DNA of 64,000 nucleotides, taken from NCBI RefSeq assembly GCF_022458985.1, contig NC_061782.1:7085672-7149671 (forward strand). Direction: 5' to 3'. The translations under genes were made by a program, and so were the position numbers. Each line of letters begins with the position of its first letter. Positions within the stretch are counted from its first letter, which is position 1. The stretch comes from Mugil cephalus (taxonomy: Eukaryota > Chordata > Actinopteri > Mugiliformes > Mugilidae). Shown here one piece after another: positions 4,112 through 63,223 of the stretch. The notes under the pieces are model-generated. The model did not search any database. It was not told where the DNA came from and saw only the letters and a list, made by a program, of their open reading frames with translations.

Positions 4112-6540
4112 GAGATGACCCCCTAACGACTTAAGTGTAATACCCAAGCGGACGCAGACACCTCTTTTCATCCGGACGGGTGCTGTGGTTAAAAGAAGGG
4201 CACGGGCCGTATTCACAAAGCCTTTGTAGCCGTTTGTTTTGCTCCTAAACAACCAGTTTAACAAGCAAATGAAAGTCAGTTACACTTAGAAGATTATTTG
4301 ATGGTAATTCCTTATCCAGTTTCAACAAAAAATTGGTCTTGGGCATTTAAACTAAAGCCAAACCAAACGTCTATGTCCCAAGTTTTTCTTTTATAATTTT
4401 TTTTTTTTTAAAGGATATAGCCACCTTTTGAATGTTTGGCTCTGTGAAACTTTACCTGGTGTGTGACAAGAGGATATCTCCACAGAGAGGGTCGACCAGT
4501 GAGCCAAACCATCAAAAAGTCCGAGTAGTAAAAATCCAAAAATGTGCACATAACAGCCGATTTATCTAGTGGATCTTAAAGCACACAAACTAGCTAAAAG
4601 CCATCTTGTTACTCCGGCAGCTCGCTGGAATACGACGAGGATTAACATCCCTAGAAACCTCACACAGACATAAACATTGAACTCTCAAGTCTATAGCAAT
4701 ATCTGCTTTCAGTTTAATATTTTAATGTGCATTTGCTTGTCATACCTGGGCATTATCTGTCATTTTCTACCGAAGACAAACTTCCACTCAAGTCTCTAGC
4801 AGTGATTTAGCCGGTTAATGTGGGGTCAGCTTTCCCACACTTAACTGCACTGAGCCACAAGAGTCAACTCAGATGGTCTCTAAGACATTCAGTCGTATTC
4901 TCATAAACTCAAGGATGAAATGCTTTGTGAATAGAGGCCCTGGAGCGGTAGTTTACTTTTCCATGACATGTGAAGAAACTGTGTGTGAGTGTGTGTGTGT
5001 GTGTGTGTAAACTACCGTGGCTTTAAAGGAGGTTTTCTCTTTGACAAACTTTGTGTACAAAGAACATTTCACCCACACAGCAGCTCGGAAAGCGCAAAAA
5101 AAAAAAAAGCAAAAAACAAACAAAAAAAAATGTTATTAGAGATTTCATGTTTTGTATTGGAGTGATAAGCATGTTATTTGCAGACTTTGATGGACTTTAG
5201 TTTACACCTTATTGTAGCCTAGAGTGACTAATTTATAATCATGTGTCTCAAAGGAAAGGCTATAGCACACGCTCACTGTATAAAGAAAATAATGTTTTAA
5301 AAAAAAATAAAATTACTTAACCTCTTCCTCCTCCTCCCCCCCCTCAAAAACTTTGTAAAGGTAACAAAACTCTTGATTCTGGGGCTGGTTTCCTAGAGGA
5401 GTATTGAATCTTAAGTATTTTCTTCCTCCTTCCTAACCTCAGTTCATTTCTAGCCATTTCTTTCCAGTGTGGCTTTTAGAGCCTTTTTGTGTATAAAACG
5501 AAAACAAAAACAAAAAAAATCCCACAAAAATTAATTAATTTTGTACAAAAACCAGCCCCTAATTGTAATGCGTCACATTTACATAACTTTACTTTTACTT
5601 CCCCCGACTTGTGTAACGGCAGAACTATCACATATGTTTTAGGCTTTACAACTAATTGGGGAGGGTGGTGATCTTACGTTAAATTTTAAAAATAACTTTT
5701 TGGATATGAATGAATATTTTGCGATTATTTCCATTAATCGCAGGTAAATTATTTTAAAGAGTCACTGACAAATTGATGACGGGGAGATTTCTCTGACATC
5801 CTGCCATTCGGGTTTTATTATTTGTGTATGTGCCATTCTGTACAGTGTATTAGACAGACTCCCGCCTTCCTGTTGAGCTCGCCAACAAACTGGATGATGT
5901 TTTTTGTTTGTTTGTTCGTTTTGAGCTTTGGACGGAGGGACGGGAGGGGTGGCGGCGGCGGTGGGGAGGGGGCCGGTTAATCATGAAGTAAAACAGGTTT
6001 TGAGAATGTAAATATAAAAACCTCCATCACCAACCTTCATGAAACCTAATGTACATACTGTAGGTAGAATGTTACGAAATTAAATGCCATCATTAAATTA
6101 CAGCAATATAATTTATGACCGAGCCTTAATTGATTTGTTGGTAAATTTCAAACTTTGTGTTTTATTTAAAGAAGCTCCATTATAAATCTAAATTCTTATT
6201 TTTTTTCCCCACTGGATTTTTCCCTTTTCTTTCTTTTTCTTTTTTTTTTAAGTTTGTGTGCCATTTTCAGGGTGTAGCAGGAAGCAGGTGACGCATCGGC
6301 TTGAACTGCACGCTTTCTGACGTGTAATATATGTGTTGCTTCAAACATTGAATGTAACGGCAATTTCGCTTTTCATGACTATACAAATAAGTTGAACAAC
6401 GAAAGTGATGTTTAATAATAAAGGATGAAATCACTTGTTTGTTTTTTTTTTTTTGTTTTTTTCCGTGTAACGGGGGTTAAAAAAAAAAAAGAAAAAAACT
6501 CAGTGAGACGCTTCAAATAAAGAAACATTTGAACCTCGTC
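4112..6540 (+). other. tial1: tial1 3' untranslated region (end inferred)
   Basis: About 2.4 kb of AT-rich sequence without convincing ORFs follows the tial1 stop. It holds several possible polyadenylation signals, near 5305, near 6416 and AATAAA at 6516-6521. The last is followed by a T/G-rich stretch and is the best candidate for the distal end. U-rich and A-rich runs are frequent. A GT microsatellite lies at about 4983-5007. The extent is inferred from signals only. Confidence 0.6.
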
Positions 6541-24300: not shown

Positions 24301-27300
24301 TTTAAAGTTCAGCTTCTTCTCGATGTCGTGGAGGATGGATTCTCTGCTCTCACGCAGTTCCTCGGCCGACGGGGGGCGCATCTTGGGCGCCTTCTTTGGA
24401 AGCCTGAAGAGACAAATGTGCAATAAAAGCAGTCAAATGTGCAGCCGTTTCGAAAAAAACTCACGTGCGTCGCAGACTGTCAGAGAAGGCGTACCCTAAT
24501 GGAGCTCCCCTGGGTAGGCCCATCGAGTTGGTGGGCTGACTGTGGGACAGCGACGGCAGGACAGAGCTGAGGAAAGCTACGGGGTTTTGAATGGGGCTGG
24601 GGCTGGAGCTGCTGGAGGTGGGAGAAGGCGCTTGCGGCGGCGACTGGGCTCGAAGGGCGAACACGCTGTTGTGGAATGGTGCTGATCCGGGCGTCGGCGA
24701 AGGGGCGAAGGACGGAGGGCTGGTGGGAGACCTGAGCACCCTCGTGGGGAGGATCCTGGTCGGAGGCGGGAACGGCGGGATCGTAGGGGAGCTGGCGGCG
24801 GAGGAGTTGAACTCGGCGGCCAGCTCGTGGAGCAGCGGCACCGGGGATTCTGTGGGGGAAGGACTTCTGACTGGTGAGAAGGTCTGAGCGGCTATGAACT
24901 CCTTGGGCCGGGTGTAGCTGAAGGTGTTGGAGGTGGCGCTGAGATTCATGAGTGAGGCGTGGGTGCTTCTCAGCAGCGGAGCGGGGGATGTGATCTGCGG
25001 CAAAGCCGGGCTTGAATCCATGGGGACTGTGCTCAGCTTTGGCGCGGCCGGAGAGAAGAATTGGGGCGTGGGCGCGGTTCGGGCGAGAGCTGCAGGGGAC
25101 ATGTTGAGGTGGGAGGCGTGGATGGTGTTAATCTGGGATACGGGCGCTATGCTGAAAGAAGGGGTTGTGTTCAGCTGTGGGGCGGGGGGAGGGGAGGTCA
25201 CCATTGAAGGTGTCTTAAGGTGAGGAGCAGAGGGAGGTGAGCTGAAAGAGGGAGTAGTGTTGAGAAGAGGTGAAAAGGTGGGGTTGGGTGATGGGGAAGA
25301 AGCCAGAGAAGAAGCAGGGGGTGCGGTGGTCAGCGGGGGTGCAGGGTGCGATGTCTGCTGCGGGGTGGTCGTCGTGTTAAGGTACGTATGGAAAGGGGGC
25401 TCACGGTGCATTCTCGGGGACCACAGCGGACCCTCCTGGGAGCTTTGGACCTCGGGTTGGACCTGGACCTGGAATGGGGGCCTGTGTTGAGGCTGGGTGC
25501 GGGTCTGGGCCGGAGGGTCGGTGTCCTGCTGCTGCTCCATGAGGACCTGGTTGTGCAGGAGCTGCAGCTGAGCCGGGCCCCTGTCGATCAAGTGAAAAGC
25601 GAAATGAGGCGAGAACTATACATGGTGAAGATGAGAGGGAGGCTCCGTGCTCCCTTCTCATAAATTTAGTCCACGCAGCGAACCCCGGCAGGAATGAGCC
25701 AAAGTCAGCATGAAGAATACTCTGCCCTTTTATGGGCTACCAACAAGTCCCAGCTTAATACACACTCAGCTTTCCCTTTAAAGATTAAAATATTCAAGAT
25801 TCGAGAAGTTTACTATCATATATACAACAAAGGTCACACTGAGCAGTGAAATTATTAGGGAGTTACCCACATTCAAGCTAAAATAAACAACTACACAAAA
25901 AAGGGAAATAAAATCACTTTAAGCGTTTTATTTATCATCTAATTACTGCAACTTCACTCAAACAACATCAGACTAATTTGTCATGTTTATCTTAATTAGC
26001 CAATACAAAAAAATAAAAAATAAAAGCAGACGACTAAACAAGGTTCAATTTACGGCTCTGTCTGAAATATCAGATTAACACGAATGCAAAGGAGCAAACT
26101 TACAGATAAAAAATGCCATCCTTTGTTTTAGAAAGCGGGTAGGTCCACATTTGAAGTCCTCACGCAGCCTTTTATGAATTGAAATGATTACAGCTGCTAT
26201 CTGCGCCAGTGGAGCAGGAACCGCCCACTTCTTCTATGCTTGTCAACACATTTATCACTCACTTAAGTAAACTACAAAGAATGTGTCCTAATATTTGGGT
26301 TGCCTCTCCTCAAAATCTCCACCTGTGGACGTTAATTCTTTTTTTTTTATTTCATGCTGTAACATCCAAATGGTAGCTTTTTTATTTTATTTTCAGTGAC
26401 TCATCTACATGTGGTGGTTTTCTCTTTGCTCTACTCACAGTTTGGGTTTAGCCAGCACGGGTGGTGGTTCTTTGTTGGCTGACGCCTGATCTGGGTCTTC
26501 GTCAGAGAGAAAGGATGCGTCACTTTGCTCCTCTTCCTCGTCCTCGGGCAGTTTGAAGTGCACGCGCAGGCCGACTCTGGAGCCGGAGCGTGAGTGTTTG
26601 TGGTTTGTCATGGTGCCTGTCTTTAGGCAGGAGTTGGGAGGAGGATCGGGCAGGGGTATCACGATGGGGGTGCCGTTCAGGTGGTTTGGGGAACCTTTAA
26701 CTTTTGGGCTTGTGTCAGGTGACGTCACTGAGGGTCTTGGCACTTCCTGCGCAGCTGAAGTCTCAGCTGCAGATGAGGCAACGAAAGGTCTTGGGTAGGA
26801 GAGGTACTGTCTGCCGCTCTGTGATTCTGGACGTGTTGCAATGGACCCGGGATGGTCCTGCTGGTTGAGGCAGAGGGGATCTAAGTTTGGGGTGCTGGTG
26901 CTGCGGGCGTTCAGGCTGGAGCTGCTGGTCAGACTGGAGGGCTCCAGACTGGGCAGGCTGGTGCGAAGAGGATCTGGGCGCAACATGCTCGAGCTGTGGG
27001 GGTCCAGGCGAAGGGTGCTGGTGTTTAAGGGGTCCAGGCGTACGGTGCTGGAGATGAGAGGGTCTAGGCGAATGGTGCTGGAGTGGGGCTTGATGCTGCT
27101 GGTCACAGCAACCTCTAGATGAGGGTTCACAGCAGGAGCCGGGGGGAAATGCTCTTGCATTGGACCGGGCTTCACCATTAAACTATTCAAAGGCCTCACG
27201 TGGTTACTGTTGCTGCCATTGCCTGAGGGACAAAGAGAATGATTGATATATACATTTCAGCGCTAGCCTCGATGTTTGTGTGAAGTGAAAGATAAACTTT

Positions 27301-38786: not shown

Positions 38787-41700
38787 TCAGGAATCGTCGC
38801 TGGCTCGTTTGCGAGACTGGTCGCCCCTGGAAGACAAGCGGCGTAAATTAGTGATTCCGATCACTGACGTTAATCTGTCCCCGAAAACCAACGCTTAAAG
38901 AATAAACTCACCGTGGAAACCCGTTCATGGAGAGCTCCATCTGTAGCTTCTGGTCGTGAGCGGCGTAGTCCGACAGCAGAGACTCCACGGCGGGAGGGTT
39001 GATTTGGGGAATGAAGCCGGAGAAGACAGCTGGTGCTAGCTGGGCCCACTCTGAAAGAAGACCCCAGGAATAAAGTTCATCACAAGAGAATGAAAGAAAA
39101 AAAAATGTTTGTTTTATGTCAGTCTTTCAGATATATAGGTCACCTGGCCGGAGGCTGTGGAGGCCCTTGACCACGCTGGCCATTGTTGATGGCTGCACTT
39201 GAAATGGCATGGAATGAGCTTCAATGAGGAGAGCTGAAAAGAACGAGTGAATCAGAAGTTACTTGTGACATCCAGGAATAAAGTCATCTACATAGTCTAC
39301 ATCAGGGATGCTCGAAAATAACTCCAAAGTTGAATCCAGGGGGGAAGAGTCGTGAGCCAAAATGTTAAGTTTGCAGTACATTAACCTCCTGAGTTCCTGT
39401 GTCCTCATATGGGGACATTAGGTTTGTGGCAGCTTTTTCTGCTTCATTTAGACCTGTTGTACTCACAAGTGGACGTTCTAGTCTGCCATCTAGTGGTAGC
39501 AAAGGGTCAATACACGAGTCGGTGTAAATCTGTGTTTCAGCATACTCGTTCTGCGGCGGATTACGTGAAGAAAGCGAAAAAACAAAAGTTTATTTACGCT
39601 TACTAACTACTCTAGTTTGGATATGACACAAAGATTAAACAAATTCTATCTAGTAGCAATGAGATATGACGTCACTAATTAGCTTGTACTTATTTGAGGA
39701 CATTGGTACTTTACTGTTTGCAATCCCGTTTTTGCACAGTACTGGTAGTGAAATATATAGTTTTATATTTTATTACGCATTGTCAACATTGCATTTTTTT
39801 TTTTTTTTTGTCAAAAACTAGTTTCTGTCCAAAGACGATGTTTGGTTTTTATGCTTCTTAGGTCCAAATAATCCCAAATATCTTGGAGAAATGAATAATG
39901 CACTGCAAACAAAAGCTCAGGTCTCAGGACGTTAAGTTAAATATGAGTGCATGCATGTGCAAAATAAACACTATCACAAATTAATTTTGAAAAATGAATG
40001 ACACTGGTTATTGTGCTTCACATTTATGTTCAATAAATTACTGAACATTTATCTGGCTTCTTTAAACAAGAAAACTAATTGAAGCACGCTGTGCAACTTA
40101 CTAGTGCAATAAACAGGACAAAACATGCCCCCATTAATCACACAGAGTTCAATCATACAACAAACACTGCAGTGGAAGTAAAATTTAACCACATATAAGA
40201 TGTGAGAAAAACAAGAAACAAAAAAATATAAATATATAAATTTATGATGACATCTGATGTTCTAACCGTGTTTTTACGTAAGCAGCGCAACGTTGTGGTT
40301 TTGGGTGGCGTCTTTATTCATTTATCTCTTCCCTTTTTTACTTCTAAAATTGGCTCTTGGTTTAGTTATTTGAACTCTCTTCACGTTCTGTTTGTTCTTG
40401 TCCAAGAAAGAATATAATTAACATAAATTAAACACTGCACAACCAAAAGTTGGATAAGTGAAGAACTAAAACTGATAAAAATATGGTCTATGGACTTTGT
40501 CTGTGTACAGTCAATTATTCATTTGGTTTTACACTCATTCATACATTCATTTACACTTTTTCCCAATTCACTGGCACATGTCGAACGAAGGATGAAATGA
40601 TGAAATGAAACGAAGCAGCACACTCACGCATCAGTGTGTTCACATGTTTTTCTGCAACGTGATCGGCGAACAGCTTCATCAGATCCTCTCTTAAATCTCT
40701 GTTGAGCTTTGACTCGATGTAGAACTTGTTCTGAAAACATTAATAAAAGGGAAACATCAGTGAACCTGCACAAAATCAAACCGAACTTTTTATTTAAAGA
40801 ATAATAACGGCAAATGCTACCTACCAAGTATATGAATACAGGAACTATGCATTGAAGAGAGGCTGTGTATTGTGTCAGTGCAACGTTGAAGTTCTCGATA
40901 AGGTTCTCAGGTGGACTGGCCTGCAAAACATTCAAAACATTCAGATAAAAGTGACGATCTTACAGCTTCCCGTTGTGCCACACGTGATGATTTGTACTTA
41001 CTTGTAGCTGTGTGGAAACCTGCTGCAGGTGACTCGTTATTTTTGATGTCAGATCATTGTAGAGCAGCTCAGAGTGCTGCTGGCAAACACACTTGTAGAT
41101 GTAACTAGGGAAACAAAGTGACGATCAGTTCAAAGTTTATCATGTCATGTCATCACATTTCTCTCTGTGTATGTGTGGAGGTCTACTTTTAAAATCTTCA
41201 GTATGCATTGATCGTTCATATTTCTGTTAGACCAAACCATCAATTAAATATCCCCAAATGATACTCATGTGTTTGTGTAGCTGCGAATGTACTCTGTATA
41301 CACCAACTAAAATGATTAAATGACTAAAACAGTATTTTAAAATAGCTGCAAGCTCTCACATTCCCAGGTTTTTCCCCCCCTTGTTTTTCATTCTTGCCCA
41401 GTTGCACTGGACGTCGGCTTCATGGGAGCACGCAACCATTGCTTTTTAGACCAAGAGTCGACATTTAAAAGCCGTAGTCTTCTGGTTCTCTACTTGCACA
41501 TCTTTGTTAACAAAATGAACTACTTTCTCTCAGTTGTAACCATAGACTGAACCGTCTATTGTTACAACAGCGTTGTTGCTTTTGTTATTTTGCACTAATT
41601 CCTTTTTTCGTAAACCAACTGTGTGCAGTAAAAGGGGAATTATCTCATTTTTATTCAGTTAAACTCTTTTATACTGTAATTAGTTCATGGAAACAGATGT

Positions 41701-44859: not shown

Positions 44860-45960
44860 ACATCACCTTGTAAATGGCATTGTGAATTACGTCGGTGTAG
44901 ACACGTATCTGGCACAATCGCTCGAACACGTCTACATGTCAACACTTTATCTTTACAGGCAGCGGAACCCTTTATCATCTATGAAGGGTGACATGGGCAA
45001 CAAAAACTGGTTTTATAATAAGGAGGGGGGGGAGAAAAAAAGTGCCATTTTTCAATGTGAATATATTCCTAAGGCTTAATATTACAACTCAGTATAACTT
45101 TGTACAGATATAAACTATCATCTACCCTTTGATGAGTATGTCTCACATCAGAGTACAAAAATAAGAGACTTGACCATAAAAAGTAGCTGCCACATGTCAG
45201 AAGGAACACCTTGTCAATTTTTTTTTTTTTTTTTTTTTTTTCCAAGATCTAAATGACAGGTTAAACATACAGAGCTTATGACAAAGAAGGAGCGCGCTGA
45301 TAAAGCGTTCTTTGGTCTAAAATTAAAGAGTACTGTTCCTTTTTTTTACGAGAGAGAGCACAACTGAACTTTCTACATCGCGGGTCAAACAATGTGTTCA
45401 AGTAAACCATGTGAAGATTTATCCATGTGTCTGAAACTCATAGTACCTATTTATCAGAGCAGTAGGCTTTCGTATTTACTTGCCTCAACGGTAACACAAA
45501 TTAACTCTAAAGCACATCATTAGACCACAGCTGACGTCACACTATGGACCGAGTTAAACGTGTGAAATCTTTACTCTGTGATGACTGCGACTGGAGAATT
45601 AAAGCTTAACCTAGTGTTGCGTTCGTGGTGCGCCACGGTAGACGAGAGCAACAGCTACATTTCTGAAAACGTGTAGGCAAAATGAGATGAAAATATGGGA
45701 AGAAGTCTTTAAGAAGGAGGAGAAAATACATCTACTGCATTCTATTTAGTAAATAGTTTACAATATGTAGTTTCAGACACAATGCATGTGACCAAACTGG
45801 GCACGGAAAGAGAAACGAGGAGGGTAAAATAAACCTGCTGCATACTCGCACAAAGGTGTCACGCAATTTCAACTTTATGAAAATAATAGTAAGGATGATG
45901 AGTCAAATATATATATATATATAAAGACAATTAGTGCTTCGTCGGCTGGGTACTTTACAT
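44860..45960 (-). other. sirt1: Likely sirt1 3' untranslated region
   Basis: Non-coding sequence after the sirt1 stop with long T/A runs, including a poly-T tract at about 45218-45241. I could not pick a single convincing minus-strand polyadenylation signal, so the end is uncertain. Confidence 0.35.
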
Positions 45961-51417: not shown

Positions 51418-52620
51418 CTTCAGCCCGCAGAGCCGCTGAGTGAGCAGCTGCCCCTCCCCCTGGACAGCTGGCTCATTAGCATAGATCACGTGATTCGCCC
51501 TGCACCAATAGCGACGCCGGGGCGTCCCTCCCCGTTTTACGTCAGCGTCATAAAACCATAACAAAATTTTGCTGCGTTCAAACGCGGTCGGATAAATTCG
51601 GAGCTCAGGTGAGCGCTTTGAAATGTGCACACAAAGTTATGTTCAGATTCAGAAAACTTTATTTGTATCCAGGTGTCAATTGCGGGCACACAGAGCAGGC
51701 AACAACGAAAAGTGTGAGTGGATGAGTGGAAAAGCTCAGTTAAGAAATTAAATAACATAGAGTAAACTAATTTGAATGAATATATACATGAAATAAATGA
51801 AAAAACACACCTGGCGATGAGTAGTGCAACGACTCAACATCATATACAATATACATTAGGTAGGTAAACAATAAGCATATATCAAAGGAAAACGTCAACG
51901 TAGATATTATAGTGCCAATACAATATTTTATAAGGTCTGAATTAATCGTAAACGTTGAAATGTAATTACTGCACTTTAAAAATATAACTAAATGATCTGA
52001 AATCCTAGCTTGTGATAATACGACTAGACATCCCAGATTTCTGCGGATGACCTGTCCCCGGCTAAGCTATCCCCGAAAATGTCCCTATACTATGACTATA
52101 GCGTTTTATGAATGAGAAAAAAAATGTTGCGCGCAGACTTCAACTATTACGGTTGTCGCTGGCGCTGCTATTGACTTTACAGACATAGTAGTTTAAATAT
52201 GTTTAAATATGAACATATATATATTATATATCTTCATTCCATCTTAATGACATTAAATTATTGTTTCTTTCTTTATTTCTTTCCCTTTTTTCCATCTCCG
52301 AGCTGTAAATGTCTCCGGGTTTCATTTCATAAATCTGGTTTGTTAAATGACACCAAGAATGGGCGGGTTTTGTGCCGAGTGCGGCATTTACCGAAACATG
52401 TGAATGCAGCCCACGTCATTTGATGAGAAGCGACGGCTGAATTTTCCCAACAACTCATGAGAGATATTCCTTCAACTAATTTTACCTGTCTGCGCCTGGA
52501 CAAAAGACGTGAACGATAACTTGAGGGGATCCAGTCAGCTAGTGAGAGGAAGCCCACCACCAGCGACCCTTGAACTGAGCAGCTGTGATCTGAGGTAGCG
52601 GCGTTCACGTTGCTCCGCTA
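51418..52620. promoter_or_regulatory. Divergent sirt1/dnajc12 intergenic promoter region
   Basis: About 1.2 kb separates the two start codons, which point away from each other. On the sirt1 side are the palindrome ATCACGTGAT (51485-51494), CCAAT (51505-51509) and CRE-like TACGTCA (51538-51544). A retroposon-like segment at 51640-51730 separates these from the dnajc12 side, so a fully shared promoter is uncertain. Confidence 0.5.
51640..51735 (+). repeat. Retroposon 3'-end-like fragment
   Basis: Starts with TTCAGATTCAGAAAACTTTA, a common phrase at the 3' end of fish retroposons, then AATTGCGGGCACACAGAGCA. Short and non-coding. Confidence 0.5.
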
Positions 52621-52650
52621 AAAACACACGCATTTCTGCTACGGATTCTC

Positions 52651-55141
52651 ATGGAGGCTGTTTTAAGCTGCAAACCAGAGGACTTGGAGGACTACTACGG
52701 GTTATTAGGGTGTGATGAATTGTCATCGGTAAGTTCTGACCTCTGGGCTTTTGGCTCAGACTATTTGCTGCGCGACACAACGTCTGTCTATGTCCATAAG
52801 ACAAAATAGTCTAGAAATACAGTTGAAAAGTGGAAAATAACCAAGAGAGAGAGAGAAAGAGAGAAAACGTCTGAGAGATTTACAGGCATTCAGATATGCA
52901 CAAACTGTGTCTTCTTCAGAGGAGTCTGAACGAACAGAGACCTGTTGATGCATCTCCAAACTAGTCGTGTCATCCAACGTGAGTGCAGGTGGTGCAACAG
53001 TATTTTACTCAATTATTAATTCATATTGGTTATAACTAGTAAATTAAAAAAATAGTCAGTCGCCTGATTCTGTCAAGTCTGGAGAGACTGTGCATCATCT
53101 GTACGTCAACAGTTCATGTCTGTTTCATGATAATTACCCTTCGGGCTAAAAATAACACCAGCTACACTTGAACAAATGCAGCTGGACGCCTCAAATACAC
53201 TTAAAGCTATTGTTCACAAGGCAGAGTTGTGTAAGAATTAAAGAATTAAGAATGTAAGAATTAAATTTGATTGTTCCGTTCGTAGTCACAAAAACCTTGA
53301 ATTTCAGATATTTCAAACGTACAATAAATTACGAGAATTCATAATTCTTACAGACCGAACAGATTCTCAATGAATACAAGATCCGAGCTTTGGCGTGTCA
53401 CCCAGACAAACATCTAGACAACCCAAGAGCTGGTGAGTGAGAATCCTTTCGACAAGTTTTTTTTGTCTTTGTGTGATGTGAAGTACAAGTTAAATCATGT
53501 GTCTGTTTTTATTGGCTTTTTGGTCACACTCTGCTTACGTAGTCCACAAACACTTAATGTCTCTTTCTGATTGACTTCAAAGCAAATTATGGAAATTGGG
53601 AGCTGCTTATCATTGCATACAAAGAAAACATTGTTTACTTGTCCTTATTCTGTACGCACAATGTGCCATGTTTGCATTTTCTCTCTCTGTAACAGTGGCA
53701 GATTTCCAAAAGCTGCAGGAAGCTAAAGAAGTTCTATGCAATGAAACCAAAAGGAAAAACTACGACCACTGGAAACGAAGTGGCGTCACTATTCCCTTTC
53801 ATGACTGGCAAGCCATGAATGACTCAGTAAAAACTGTGAGTGATGTCTTTGCTTTGACATAGTCACAATACTGTGCAATCTCTGAAACATAAAATGATCC
53901 GTCTGCAGTCGATGCACTGGGCCGTGAGAAATAAGAAGGAACCGATGCTGGAGGCCGGCAAACCAGAGGGACAAGTCACCTCACAAGCAGGAGACCTTCA
54001 CTGTGAGCAGGAAGCACCAGACGTCCCTTCATATGAAGCTGTGCCACCCGCAAGTAAGTGAACTGTAATCTTTTTTTTTCTTCTTCTCATTTGCAACATG
54101 TAACAAAACATAACTGAAAAAACAACAGGCACAAAAATACTGGTTTTCCACTGGATCATGACCCCTGTTTTTATAACATTTTTAAAATCTGAAATTTGAG
54201 TTTCACCTCTATAACAGGCAATTAATAATCAACAGGAGCCCTCCAGGTAGCTACAGGAAAACTCAGGCAGCACAAGAGCCACTCGTGTGTGACATTAACA
54301 TCATAGAATATTGAAATATTGAATATTAAAGACAAGCTGCACGCCCACACTAGTTTTAATGAAGTGTTAGATTTTGCACTTCAAAGCTACCACTTTAAAT
54401 CTAATGATAACTTGGGAAGACGTCCAGAAAAGCCAGACAGCATTTCTGTTTTGTTTTTTTGTGTTGTTTTTTTCGCAGGTGCGGATGAATTTCATTTGTG
54501 AGGTTTATTGTTTCAAAAGATAATTTTCAGCTTCAAGTCCAAGTATCTAAAAAAGTATCTGATCTACTGATTTTCTTCAGGTTTTTAGCATCAGACCACA
54601 GGGCTACAGGGGTTAACTGATTCACTGTTCACTAATTCACTGTCCCTGCCTTTTCCTTTGCCAACTTCTCATTAAATACTTGTGATAAATTCACCCAAAA
54701 AGCACTGAAAAGGATGAGGTTGCATTAACAAATGTCCAAAGTTAGAAGGGAGTCATAACCTCAGTGACAAAGAGTTTTCACAGTACTGCAGTAAAACTCT
54801 CTGCTGTGTACTTGTTGAATAAAATCTCATTTTGAATGGTTATATGTGATCTTGTTATTATGACTTAATGAAATTTACATTTAATGTTTTCTATTACATT
54901 GTTGATTTTGTAGAACATTTAGTGTATCTTCATTGCATCATCATTTAAATCAGATTTGTTATTGTTTGTACTTGTAGTTCTCTTTTACAGTATGCAGTAT
55001 CTGTTTTTCTTGCAGCATGAAATCTTTCAGGATTAACTGTTTTATTATCACTGCTTAGGTGAATATTGCCATCGACGTTTCCGCTGGGCTGCTGACTCTC
55101 CGTCTAGTCTGCTGCAGAAGTTCAGAAATTATGAAATATAA
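52651..55141 (+). CDS. dnajc12: DnaJ heat shock protein family member C12
   Basis: J-domain co-chaperone of HSP70; in mammals it assists folding of the aromatic amino-acid hydroxylases. Five exons: 52651-52728, 53354-53432, 53696-53835, 53909-54053, 55059-55141, giving 174 residues (human 198). The J domain starts at DYYGLLGCDELS; the catalytic HPD is at residues 42-44, and KRKNYDHWKRSG closes the domain. Then VKTSMHWAVRNKKEPMLE, a variable linker, and the conserved tail RFRWAADSPSSLLQKFRNYEI ending at the stop. The shorter linker accounts for the length difference. It lies head to head with sirt1 and upstream of the 7SL gene. Confidence 0.95.
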
Positions 55142-56100
55142 GTACATTATGTGTTAACTGGATGTACGTTTGACTCTGTTAAGTGTAGCATATTTTTTTC
55201 CCGTCTTGCCGAAGTAGAAATTGTGACATGTTGTAAAATGTGTCTTTTGCAAGAGTGAAGCCTGTAAGAAATATGAGACCAATTCATGTTAGAATATTAT
55301 GTCTTTACTGTCGTTATGCCGTTGTCATTATGTTCACTAACACCTGATATTGATATGTTTAATGCTGTCCTGTATTTTCGTGTTGCTAATGTCAGGAACA
55401 TAAAACTGAAATATTTCATCGTCATCATTTACATTATGTGAATTATTTGTTATTGTTTTTAACAATTTCAACAAACTAATTTCTTCATTACATCTGTAAG
55501 TGCTTTTTGCTTTTACTGTTGTGCCGCTGACCCTTTGTTGCATTGTTGAGATGGGGCTGATAAGTAATACACAGATAATGCATTTTATTTTATAGAAATT
55601 ACACACTATCATACTTTGAATGCAACTCGCAACAAAGTGCACAATATTTACATATTTATAATGGTACGTTTTAGTCAACACAAGAACAAATCATGTAAAA
55701 TGTTACTGAAAACAGACTTATGCACCTTCAAATCAATTTCATTGGCAGCTTTTCAAAGCTACAAAACTACTGGAATTTTAACTATTGTCTTTGACATCAA
55801 ATCAAATAAGATAACATAAGATAAGTTAGGGCCTTGTGATGTGGAATGACCGCCCCAAAGGAATCAGGTCAACTGGGTGTGATCTCTTTTTATTTAAAAC
55901 ATACTTTTATCAGAGAGCGTTTTCCAGCTTTAATTAAATGCTGATTGAGATTTCAATTAATATTTCAATTGTATCACTGAGTGTTTTATTGTTTTTATTG
56001 ACTGTATCTTATGTGCCTGTTTTTATTTTAATTGCAGTCTTTGTAATGTTTTTGTAATGTTGCTTTAAAAGTGCTAATAAATCACATAAGTTGTACGCAA
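55142..56100 (+). other. dnajc12: dnajc12 3' untranslated region (end inferred)
   Basis: AT-rich non-coding sequence. An AATAAA within CTAATAAATCACATAAG near 56076 is the best distal polyadenylation signal, about 260 bp before the 7SL RNA start. Confidence 0.5.
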
Positions 56101-56315
56101 GGACGTGCACATGAAGAAATTAGATAGAAAAAACGTGAGTAAGTTCACAAAATACAGAATAAATATTAACAAAAACAAATGTAGGTTTATGTCCATGTTT
56201 GTTTCAAGCCGACACAAAAAATAATCACATCCAAATAAACTGAGGAGTTGTGCAGCCTCTCAGTGAATTAGGACGTTTCTCTTTCTTCACCACGGAGCGT
56301 CGCTGTGGTGCGTGA

Positions 56316-56342
56316 TGACGTCACATTTGTACACGTTAAAAG
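56316..56342 (+). promoter_or_regulatory. 7SL upstream Pol III elements: CRE/ATF site and TATA-like box
   Basis: A perfect palindromic TGACGTCA lies at 56316-56323 (-50 to -43 from the RNA start), and TTAAAAG at 56336-56342 (-30 to -24). Mammalian 7SL genes need an ATF/CREB site near -50 and a TATA-like element near -28 together with internal promoter sequences. This matches that layout. Confidence 0.85.
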
Positions 56343-56365
56343 CCCGATGAGCTCTTGTGTTTCTC

Positions 56366-56665
56366 GCCGGGTGCGGTGGCGCGCGCCTGTAATCCAAGCT
56401 ACCGGGAGGCTGAGGCTGGCGGATCGTTTGAGCTCAGGAGCTCTGAGCTGCAGCGGACTATGTCGATCGGGTGTCCGCACTAAGTTCGGTATCGATATGG
56501 TGCTCCTGGGGGAGCCCGGGACCACCAGGTCGTCTAAGGAGGGGTGCACCGGCCCAGGTCGGAAACGGAGCAGGTCAAAGCCCCCGTGCCGCTCAGTAGT
56601 GGGATCGCGCCTGTGAATAGACGCTGTAGTGCAGCCTGAGTAATATAGCGGGACACAGTCTTTTT
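56366..56665 (+). ncRNA. 7SL RNA (signal recognition particle RNA)
   Basis: Structural RNA of the signal recognition particle, transcribed by Pol III. The sequence is about 300 nt and collinear with vertebrate 7SL from GCCGGGTGCGGTGGCGCGCG to the terminal T5 run (56661-56665). The 5' and 3' Alu-domain halves are present (TGTAATCC...GGAGGCTGAGGC; GTAGTGGGATCGCGCCTGTG). The S domain is complete: GTCCGCACTAAGTTCGG, GACCACCAGGT, and the SRP54-binding helix 8 with GGTCGGAAACGGAGCAGGT (about 56558-56576). An intact S domain, an upstream promoter and the absence of a 3' A-tail argue for a functional gene, not a retro-pseudogene or Alu-like SINE. Confidence 0.95.
56661..56665 (+). terminator. Pol III T5 terminator of 7SL RNA
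   Basis: Five consecutive T directly after the conserved 3' end (ACACAGTC), the standard RNA polymerase III stop signal. Confidence 0.85.
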
Positions 56666-60398: not shown

Positions 60399-60682
60399 AT
60401 GCTGTGCTGGGGAAATGCCTCCTACGGACAGCTAGGCTTGGGTGGCATTGATGAGGAGATTGTGGTTGAGCCACGAAAATGTGAATTCTTCCACGGGAAG
60501 CAAGTGTGTGACGTGGGGTGTGGCCGCAGACACACGGTTTTCGTGCTGGAGGATGGGACGGTGTACACCTGTGGCTGCAACGACCTGGGTCAGCTGGGAC
60601 ACGAGAAGTCCAGAAAGAAACCAGGTTGGTTGCATGTGTCTCTGTTTGGTTGCAGTGACACCTAAAAACCAGTTGTAAACAT

Positions 60683-60734
<52 letters not shown>

Positions 60735-63223
60735 ACCAGAACAGGTTGTGGCCCTGGACGCTCAGATCATAGTTGCAGTGTCATGTGGAGAGTCCCACAC
60801 TCTGGCCCTGAACGACAAAGGACAGGTTTTCTCATGGGGCTTAGGTTCAGACGGACAGCTGGGATTAAATAACTTTGAGGAATGTATTCGAGTGCCTAGG
60901 TAAATTTAACCACACACTCTTTTTTTTTTTTTTTTTTTGTGCATACCTGTTTAACATGAAACCTTTCCGCGGGACGTCTGCTCCTGCTTTGTTATTTGAA
61001 GGCACGTGCAATTAATACCCGAATAGTCCGAATGCAGCAACACAAATGAAGAAATCACTAACTGTAATGTGTTAGTTGGATATGTGTGGTGGCACGTATA
61101 TAGCGGCGGAATTGTTGATACACATACTGTATTTGTTTGTGTTGTGTGGTGTATTCTCAGGACTGTACGGACTGTGGAAACAATTTTCGTGTGAAGGACA
61201 AATATATACCTAGTTTGATTTCAAAAGGCCTTTCCTGTGTCCTTGTGCACATAATGTTATTTGTTCTGCAAGCTTAAATATTGTTTTCTTCCTCTTTAAA
61301 CATAACAGAAATATCAAGACTTTGTCAGACGTACAAATTGCTCAGGTAGCCTGTGGGCACTGGCACTCTCATGCACTTTCGAGAGGTGAGAATGCTTTGC
61401 ACCCACATAACATGTATTTATTTATTTATTTATTCCGCATGTTACGATTTCCTCACCGCGAGCCACTTCAATTATATCCGTTGTGCCACAGGGGGCCAAG
61501 TCTTCTCCTGGGGCCAGAATCGATACGGTCAACTCGGGCTAGGAAGTAACGGGCAGAGCATTCCCACGCCCCAGATCATTCAGTCTCTGCAGGGCATTCC
61601 TTTTGCTCAGATATCAGCAGGTGGTGCTCACAGCTTCGCCCTCACTCTCTCAGGGGCGGTGTTCGGTTGGGGCCGCAACAAGTTCGGTCAGCTGGGTCTC
61701 AATGACAGCAACGGTGGGTGACCTGACACTTAGAGCACGTGCGGGCGGTCAAAAAATAATCTCTGGCTAATTTTCAGGGGTTCTTTTTTCTTTTTTTCTT
61801 TTTTTCAGATCGGTATTTCCCAACCCTTCTGAAATCCCTTAGATCGCAGAGAGTGATTTACATCTCCTGTGGAGAAGATCACACAGCAGCACTCACCAAG
61901 TTAAGTAACATAGTATTTTTGTAATCTAAAAACACTATAGTGTGAACTGTGGAAGACCTTATTTAGAAAGTGGTATGTGATTAGTGATGTTCAGCCTTAT
62001 TTTTTGTTGTATTACTGCCCAGCTTTATATTTGACCCTGGGGTTATCAAATTATCATTCTAGCATTTTAGCACGATTTAAACTAAGATATAAAAACCATA
62101 AATGAGTGGAGATGATAAAATTTAGTTTGGTAACAATGTCTCCTAAGTGCAGGAGGCAGTGTTGAACCAAGAGGTAGCCCCAGAGGTGTTATTATTAACA
62201 CTTACAGTAGGTAAACATCTAAGCATCCACTTTAATCTTCTCATACTAATGATGCTTATTAAGCTGGTGTGTAATGTTGTCATAACAAGCCTCATTCATT
62301 TTCTGGCAGTTCCCTATGGGTAATAACAGGATTAAAATCATTTAATTGACTGCATCCTATGTTATGTGTTTGTTCTAGTGCCACAGTCTGTGCTTATATT
62401 TTCTACTTACGCTGTTCCCGTCCCTTCGAATGTCAGAATAACCGGTGCTGCTGATTTTACAGGAAGGAGGCGTGTTTACATTTGGAGCAGGAGGATACGG
62501 ACAGCTCGGGCATAACTCTACAAACCATGAGATCAATCCCCGGAAAGTGTTTGAGCTCATGGGAAACGTGGTCACACAGATTGCGTGCGGAAGGTAAAAG
62601 AGTAAAAAAGGGATTTTATTGTGTTGCCACAAAACGTTTCCAAACTGTTGTGTTTTTAAAAGACAGCACACGTTGGCTTTCACCCCCTCCTCTGGAAAGA
62701 TGGATTCCTTCGGGCTTGGAGGAAACGGGCAGCTCGGTACACGATCCACCTGCAACAGAAAAAGCCCCGCCCCGGTCAAAGGACCCTGGGTAGCCTTGAA
62801 TCCTTTAACAGATGCAGGAGAGGAAAGTAAGTAAAGCAGCATCAAGTGATTTCCGAGGACTAGTTGGCAGAGAGGTGCAGCATATATGTAATAATTAACT
62901 TATCAGGCTCCAAGATTCTGCTCCAATGTGGCTCATTTTATCCCCGGTTTGGTCCACTAACAGAAAATTATCTGTGTCCTTGTCCATTGTTTACTTAAGC
63001 TCTGAACAGGAAAAACGAGCAAAAGATGCAGAAATCTGGTTGTTGATTCTCAGTGGGCTCAGAAATATTACCAACACTCTTTGATATTTTATTTTATTAT
63101 GATATTGTGAACGCAAATACATGTGTTTTTCTTCCTTTTGTTACAGTCTCAGAGCAGAACTGTTGTGTCAAGAGGATTTATGCGGGGGGAGATCAGAGCT
63201 TTGCTCACTATTGCACTGCCAAT
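60399..63223 (+). CDS. herc4: HERC4 E3 ubiquitin ligase, 5' part (RCC1-like domain)
   Basis: HECT-family ubiquitin ligase; only the N-terminal RCC1-like propeller is in the window and the gene runs off its end. Exons: 60399-60624, 60740-60899, 61309-61385, 61492-61713, 61809-61900, 62463-62593, 62663-62826, 63147-63223, giving 383 codons. The start MLCWGNASYGQLGLGGIDEE is the HERC4 N-terminus. Blade signatures recur: CGRRHTVFVLEDG, CGESHTLALNDKG, WGQNRYGQLGLG, WGRNKFGQLGLND, CGEDHTAALTK, FGAGGYGQLGHNS. HERC4 fits better than HERC3. The ATG exon begins after an acceptor at 60352. The exon ending at 61900 lacks a GT donor in the required phase, and the second exon's acceptor follows a (TG)23 tract. 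Confidence 0.93.
60687..60732 (+). repeat. (TG)23 microsatellite next to a herc4 splice acceptor
   Basis: A perfect TG run ending seven bases before the exon start at 60740 and taking the place of a polypyrimidine tract. Confidence 0.95.

Follow-up and report, generated by a model that had tools for sequence, protein, structure and literature searches.

A predicted functional 7SL RNA gene with mammalian-like spacing of upstream promoter elements in a fish genome

The analysis covered a 64-kb window (the whole stretch of Mugil cephalus DNA under study), in which a single Rfam family reached its gathering score: cmscan matched one locus to Metazoa_SRP (RF00017) over the full length of the model and without being cut off, with a score of 276 bits (gathering score 70 bits; E 3.3e-75). 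The features of this locus are listed in Table 1, in which +1 is the base aligned to the first position of the RF00017 model. A sequence-only reading of the same DNA had described an intact 7SL gene with a 300-nt RNA, both domains and a T5 run, and had proposed the covariance search with the metazoan SRP RNA model as a check; that search agrees with the description, and the span given for the gene, CRE and T5 run included (56316-56665), was correct. As expected of a metazoan SRP RNA, the T run is present at the end of the RNA, and such a run serves as a terminator for RNA polymerase III (Pol III).

Table 1. Elements of the 7SL locus, with positions in the window and, for the upstream elements, relative to +1
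Feature	Position	Strand	Basis
CRE/ATF palindrome TGACGTCA at -50/-43	56316..56323	+	sequence and position; mammalian counterpart at -50/-43 or -51/-44 (PMC7279448, excerpts)
TATA-like box TTAAAAG at -30/-24	56336..56342	+	sequence and position; mammalian TATA-like box at -31/-24 (PMC7279448, excerpts)
7SL (SRP) RNA body	56366..56664	+	Alu and S domains complete; RF00017, 276 bits, model 1-299/299
Internal box A GGTGCGGTGG	56370..56379	+	comparison with human and hagfish boxes (PMC7245038, excerpts)
Internal box B AGCTCTGAGCT	56439..56449	+	comparison with human and hagfish boxes (PMC7245038, excerpts)
T5 run, presumed Pol III terminator	56661..56665	+	sequence and position

A looser Rfam search (E up to 1) gave three extra matches, each under its own gathering score, and ARAGORN found no tRNA in the window. 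The head of the 7SL RNA (56364-56414) has a weak match to mir-1268 (34.9 bits, gathering score 83), an identity which was set aside as probably reflecting a likeness of that family to the 7SL/Alu head. Elsewhere, a sub-threshold match to Phe_leader (6414-6514, minus strand, 32.2 vs 55 bits) is presumably due to chance, since this is a bacterial family.

The upstream neighbour of the 7SL locus is dnajc12 on the plus strand, identified by a match to DnaJ homolog subfamily C member 12 (E 8.5e-16), while the Pfam DnaJ match of a dnajc12 exon reached 23.7 bits, under the cut-off of 27.8. Beyond dnajc12 lies sirt1 on the minus strand, with a PDB match to sirtuin-1 (E 2e-35) and a SIR2 domain in Pfam. 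Downstream, the exons of an RCC1-repeat gene on the plus strand start at about 60390, with RCC1 found in all three frames scanned there; among the seven frames scanned with Pfam in total, frame 52594-52806 was without a match. The best solved-structure matches of the RCC1-repeat gene were to UVR8, followed by HERC1 and HERC2, and its name was therefore derived from gene order: DNAJC12, SIRT1 and HERC4 are presumably neighbours in vertebrates, and the gene is consistent with herc4 on the strength of its RCC1 matches and this order, rather than of a herc4-specific match. The placement between dnajc12 and herc4 proposed by the sequence-only reading thus stands by direct match on the dnajc12 side, and in part on the herc4 side. 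On the plus strand, an AATAAA at 56076-56081 precedes the CRE by approximately 235 bp. It may serve as the polyadenylation signal of dnajc12, in which case the Pol III promoter would directly follow the 3' end of that gene. Within the RCC1-repeat gene, a sub-threshold SCARNA7 match (60596-60797, 27.9 vs 65 bits) overlaps an RCC1 exon and a TG repeat, and is probably a chance match.

The base pairing of the RNA was assessed using our own parse of the Rfam structure line, which contains 120 base pairs. In the 7SL RNA described here, 100 of these are standard pairs (71 the same as in the Rfam consensus, 17 with a change in one partner and 12 with a change in both), and 8 of the 20 non-standard pairs are also non-standard in the Rfam consensus line; cmscan itself marks 12 positions, equalling 6 pairs, as not standard. 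Minimum-free-energy folding gave a z of -1.25, with 19/200 shuffles folding at least as well, and is hence only modestly below the shuffles; folding energy by itself does not discriminate.

We then compared the RNA and its internal boxes with those of other vertebrates. Aligned with a human 7SL RNA sequence, 258/303 columns are identical, and differences are found around helix 6. Against the boxes given in excerpts of PMC7245038, box A differs from human at 1/10 bases and box B at 2/11, whereas for the hagfish 7SL gene, where the boxes alone were compared, these numbers are 2/10 and 1/11, respectively. Zebrafish 7SL RNA has been measured by qPCR with published primers (PMC2229849, excerpts), of which the forward primer matches the window at 21/21 bases (56485) and the reverse primer at 18/19 (56563; 40 nt compared); zebrafish thus expresses an RNA with almost the same sequence at the two primer sites, an expression which concerns the zebrafish 7SL RNA and not the copy in the window. 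A 21-base S-domain pattern had no matches in collections of viral contigs and of genome contigs, which by their description are not of fish genomes. Similarly, no paper title on a fish 7SL promoter was found among the matches listed in the open-licence literature, a scope which makes this weak evidence of absence.

With regard to the upstream region, excerpts of PMC7279448 give, for mammalian 7SL genes, the consensus TGACGTCA for a CRE at -51/-44 and CTCTAGTA for a TATA-like box at -31/-24. Table 1 of that paper lists the CRE of human 7SL-1 as TGACGTCA at -50/-43, with its TATA-like box at -29/-23; for human 7SL-3 the entries are TGACGTAA at -50/-43 and, for the TATA-like box, -30/-24. Substitution of the CRE led to a 2.5-fold loss of human 7SL transcription in vitro, and substitution of the TATA-like box to a four-fold loss (cited in PMC7279448). 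The review PMC8362101, also available in excerpts, describes the same hybrid promoter for 7SL, with the addition of STAF-binding sequences. The perfect CRE at -50 and the TTAAAAG at -30 claimed from the sequence alone are indeed at these positions, and agree with the element positions reported for human 7SL-1 and 7SL-3 within about a base. The locus resembles human RN7SL1 and RN7SL3, as far as these are described there, in having a full 7SL RNA, boxes A and B, a CRE at -50/-43 and a TATA-like box at approximately -30/-24, and it combines the elements of a hybrid type 2 Pol III promoter: a CRE near -50, a TATA-like box near -30 and both internal boxes. While the CRE is identical to that listed for human 7SL-1 (and 7SL-3 differs from both), the TATA-like box is different, as TTAAAAG is found instead of the TTCTAGTA/TTCTAGTG of the human 7SL genes and departs from the reported mammalian consensus.

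Another difference concerns the accessory sites. Sp1 sites are reported in many mammalian 7SL genes but are absent from some (PMC7279448, excerpts), and unlike those many, the 115 bp upstream of the 7SL RNA described here do not contain an Sp1 box (GGGCGG or CCGCCC). Since that source states that some 7SL genes are without an Sp1 site, we do not take the missing Sp1 box as defining. A search with Sp1, STAF and octamer patterns detected no exact site in the 300 bp upstream, the nearest such site being an octamer with one mismatch on the minus strand at -137; the accessory Sp1 or STAF site of the mammalian 7SL promoter is thus absent in exact form from these 300 bp.

A real 7SL gene could nevertheless resemble its mammalian counterparts upstream by coincidence or convergence, while its activity depends on the internal boxes, and such a reading is compatible with a functional gene. 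The comparison does rest on a single fish locus with a TATA-like sequence unlike the mammalian one, and neither upstream motif is rare on its own: TGACGTCA is found four times in the 64-kb window (shuffle mean 0.82; 1/100 shuffles reached 4) and therefore is not unique to the 7SL locus, and TTAAAAG is found 27 times (shuffle mean 19.92; 3/100 shuffles reached 27), so that it is the placement which matters. The other three exact copies of TGACGTCA, all on the plus strand, are at 26720-26727, 39667-39674 and 45532-45539, and each is followed by a C, as at the 7SL copy. With regard to placement, 300,000 sequences were simulated from a first-order Markov model of the 110 bp upstream of the 7SL RNA; an exact CRE had its first base at -51 to -49 in a fraction of approximately 0.00027, and a CRE with up to one mismatch did so in approximately 0.0035. 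When 63,800 plus-strand positions were treated as mock start sites, nine combined an exact CRE whose first base is at -51 to -49 with an A/T heptamer (at least 6/7 A/T) near -30, and the real 7SL site, which is included, may with its neighbours supply up to three of these nine. It is thus improbable that chance placed both elements where they are, mainly because of the CRE; the low chance of an exact CRE within the right three-base slot under the local model, and the agreement of both positions with those reported for the human 7SL genes, make coincidence or convergence a very unlikely explanation.

Slightly further down in probability is the possibility that this is a recent, still intact but untranscribed 7SL pseudogene, arisen as a retrocopy or as a segmental copy. 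Expansions of 7SL retrocopies are reported for marsupials and guinea pig in excerpts of PMC7245038, transcription of the copy in the window is a prediction from its sequence, and a segmental copy which carried its promoter along would fit. An A tail and target-site repeats are the usual marks of a retrocopy, whereas the sequence after the T5 run is without an A tail, and no word of at least 6 bases is common to the 30 bp preceding the RNA and the 41 bp which begin at its end. The combination of A-rich tail and target-site duplication expected of a retrocopy or SINE is thus missing at the 7SL locus, there is no sign of retrocopying, and a retrocopy origin was rejected on these two counts. The only repeat found between 55900 and 57000 was a 12-nt pair with 92% identity (56247-56258 and 56626-56637), which is not a target-site repeat as the second copy is inside the RNA. 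Furthermore, a CRE and a TATA-like box at the exact positions would be unexpected in a retrocopy.

We therefore read the locus as a functional single-exon Pol III gene for the 7SL (SRP) RNA, with a probability of about 0.92, based on the full-length covariance match, the base pairing, the lack of retrocopy signs, the CRE and TATA-like box at mammalian positions and the zebrafish primer matches; the modest folding energy, the 20/120 non-standard pairs and the missing Sp1 or STAF site were counted against it. In such a gene, TFIIIC would bind the internal boxes A and B and thereby position TFIIIB on the TATA-like box at -30, the CRE at -50 would be occupied by an ATF/CREB-type factor which boosts 7SL output, and Pol III would terminate at the T5 run. 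The resulting 7SL RNA would then join the SRP proteins, and nascent proteins would be targeted to the ER.

The claim that the ATF plus TATA-like architecture known from mammals is shared with fish is supported for this one locus, where the layout is mammalian-like and the TATA-like sequence differs. We lean towards the view that the CRE at -50 and the TATA-like box at -30 represent an ancestral bony-vertebrate promoter with a spacing kept for over 400 million years, and that the dnajc12-herc4 interval may be an old home of 7SL in fish, with the promoter half of this view likelier than the old-home half. As 7SL RNA is essential and abundant, conserved control of its gene is to be expected, and the promoter likeness at this one locus extends known biology in a modest and expected way. 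The locus is useful for annotation and for the choice of which 7SL copy to test. The mammalian promoter spacing of a fish gene suggests that the ATF-dependent hybrid Pol III promoter is older than mammals, and if the promoter is indeed ancestral, then ATF/CREB control of SRP output would be ancient.
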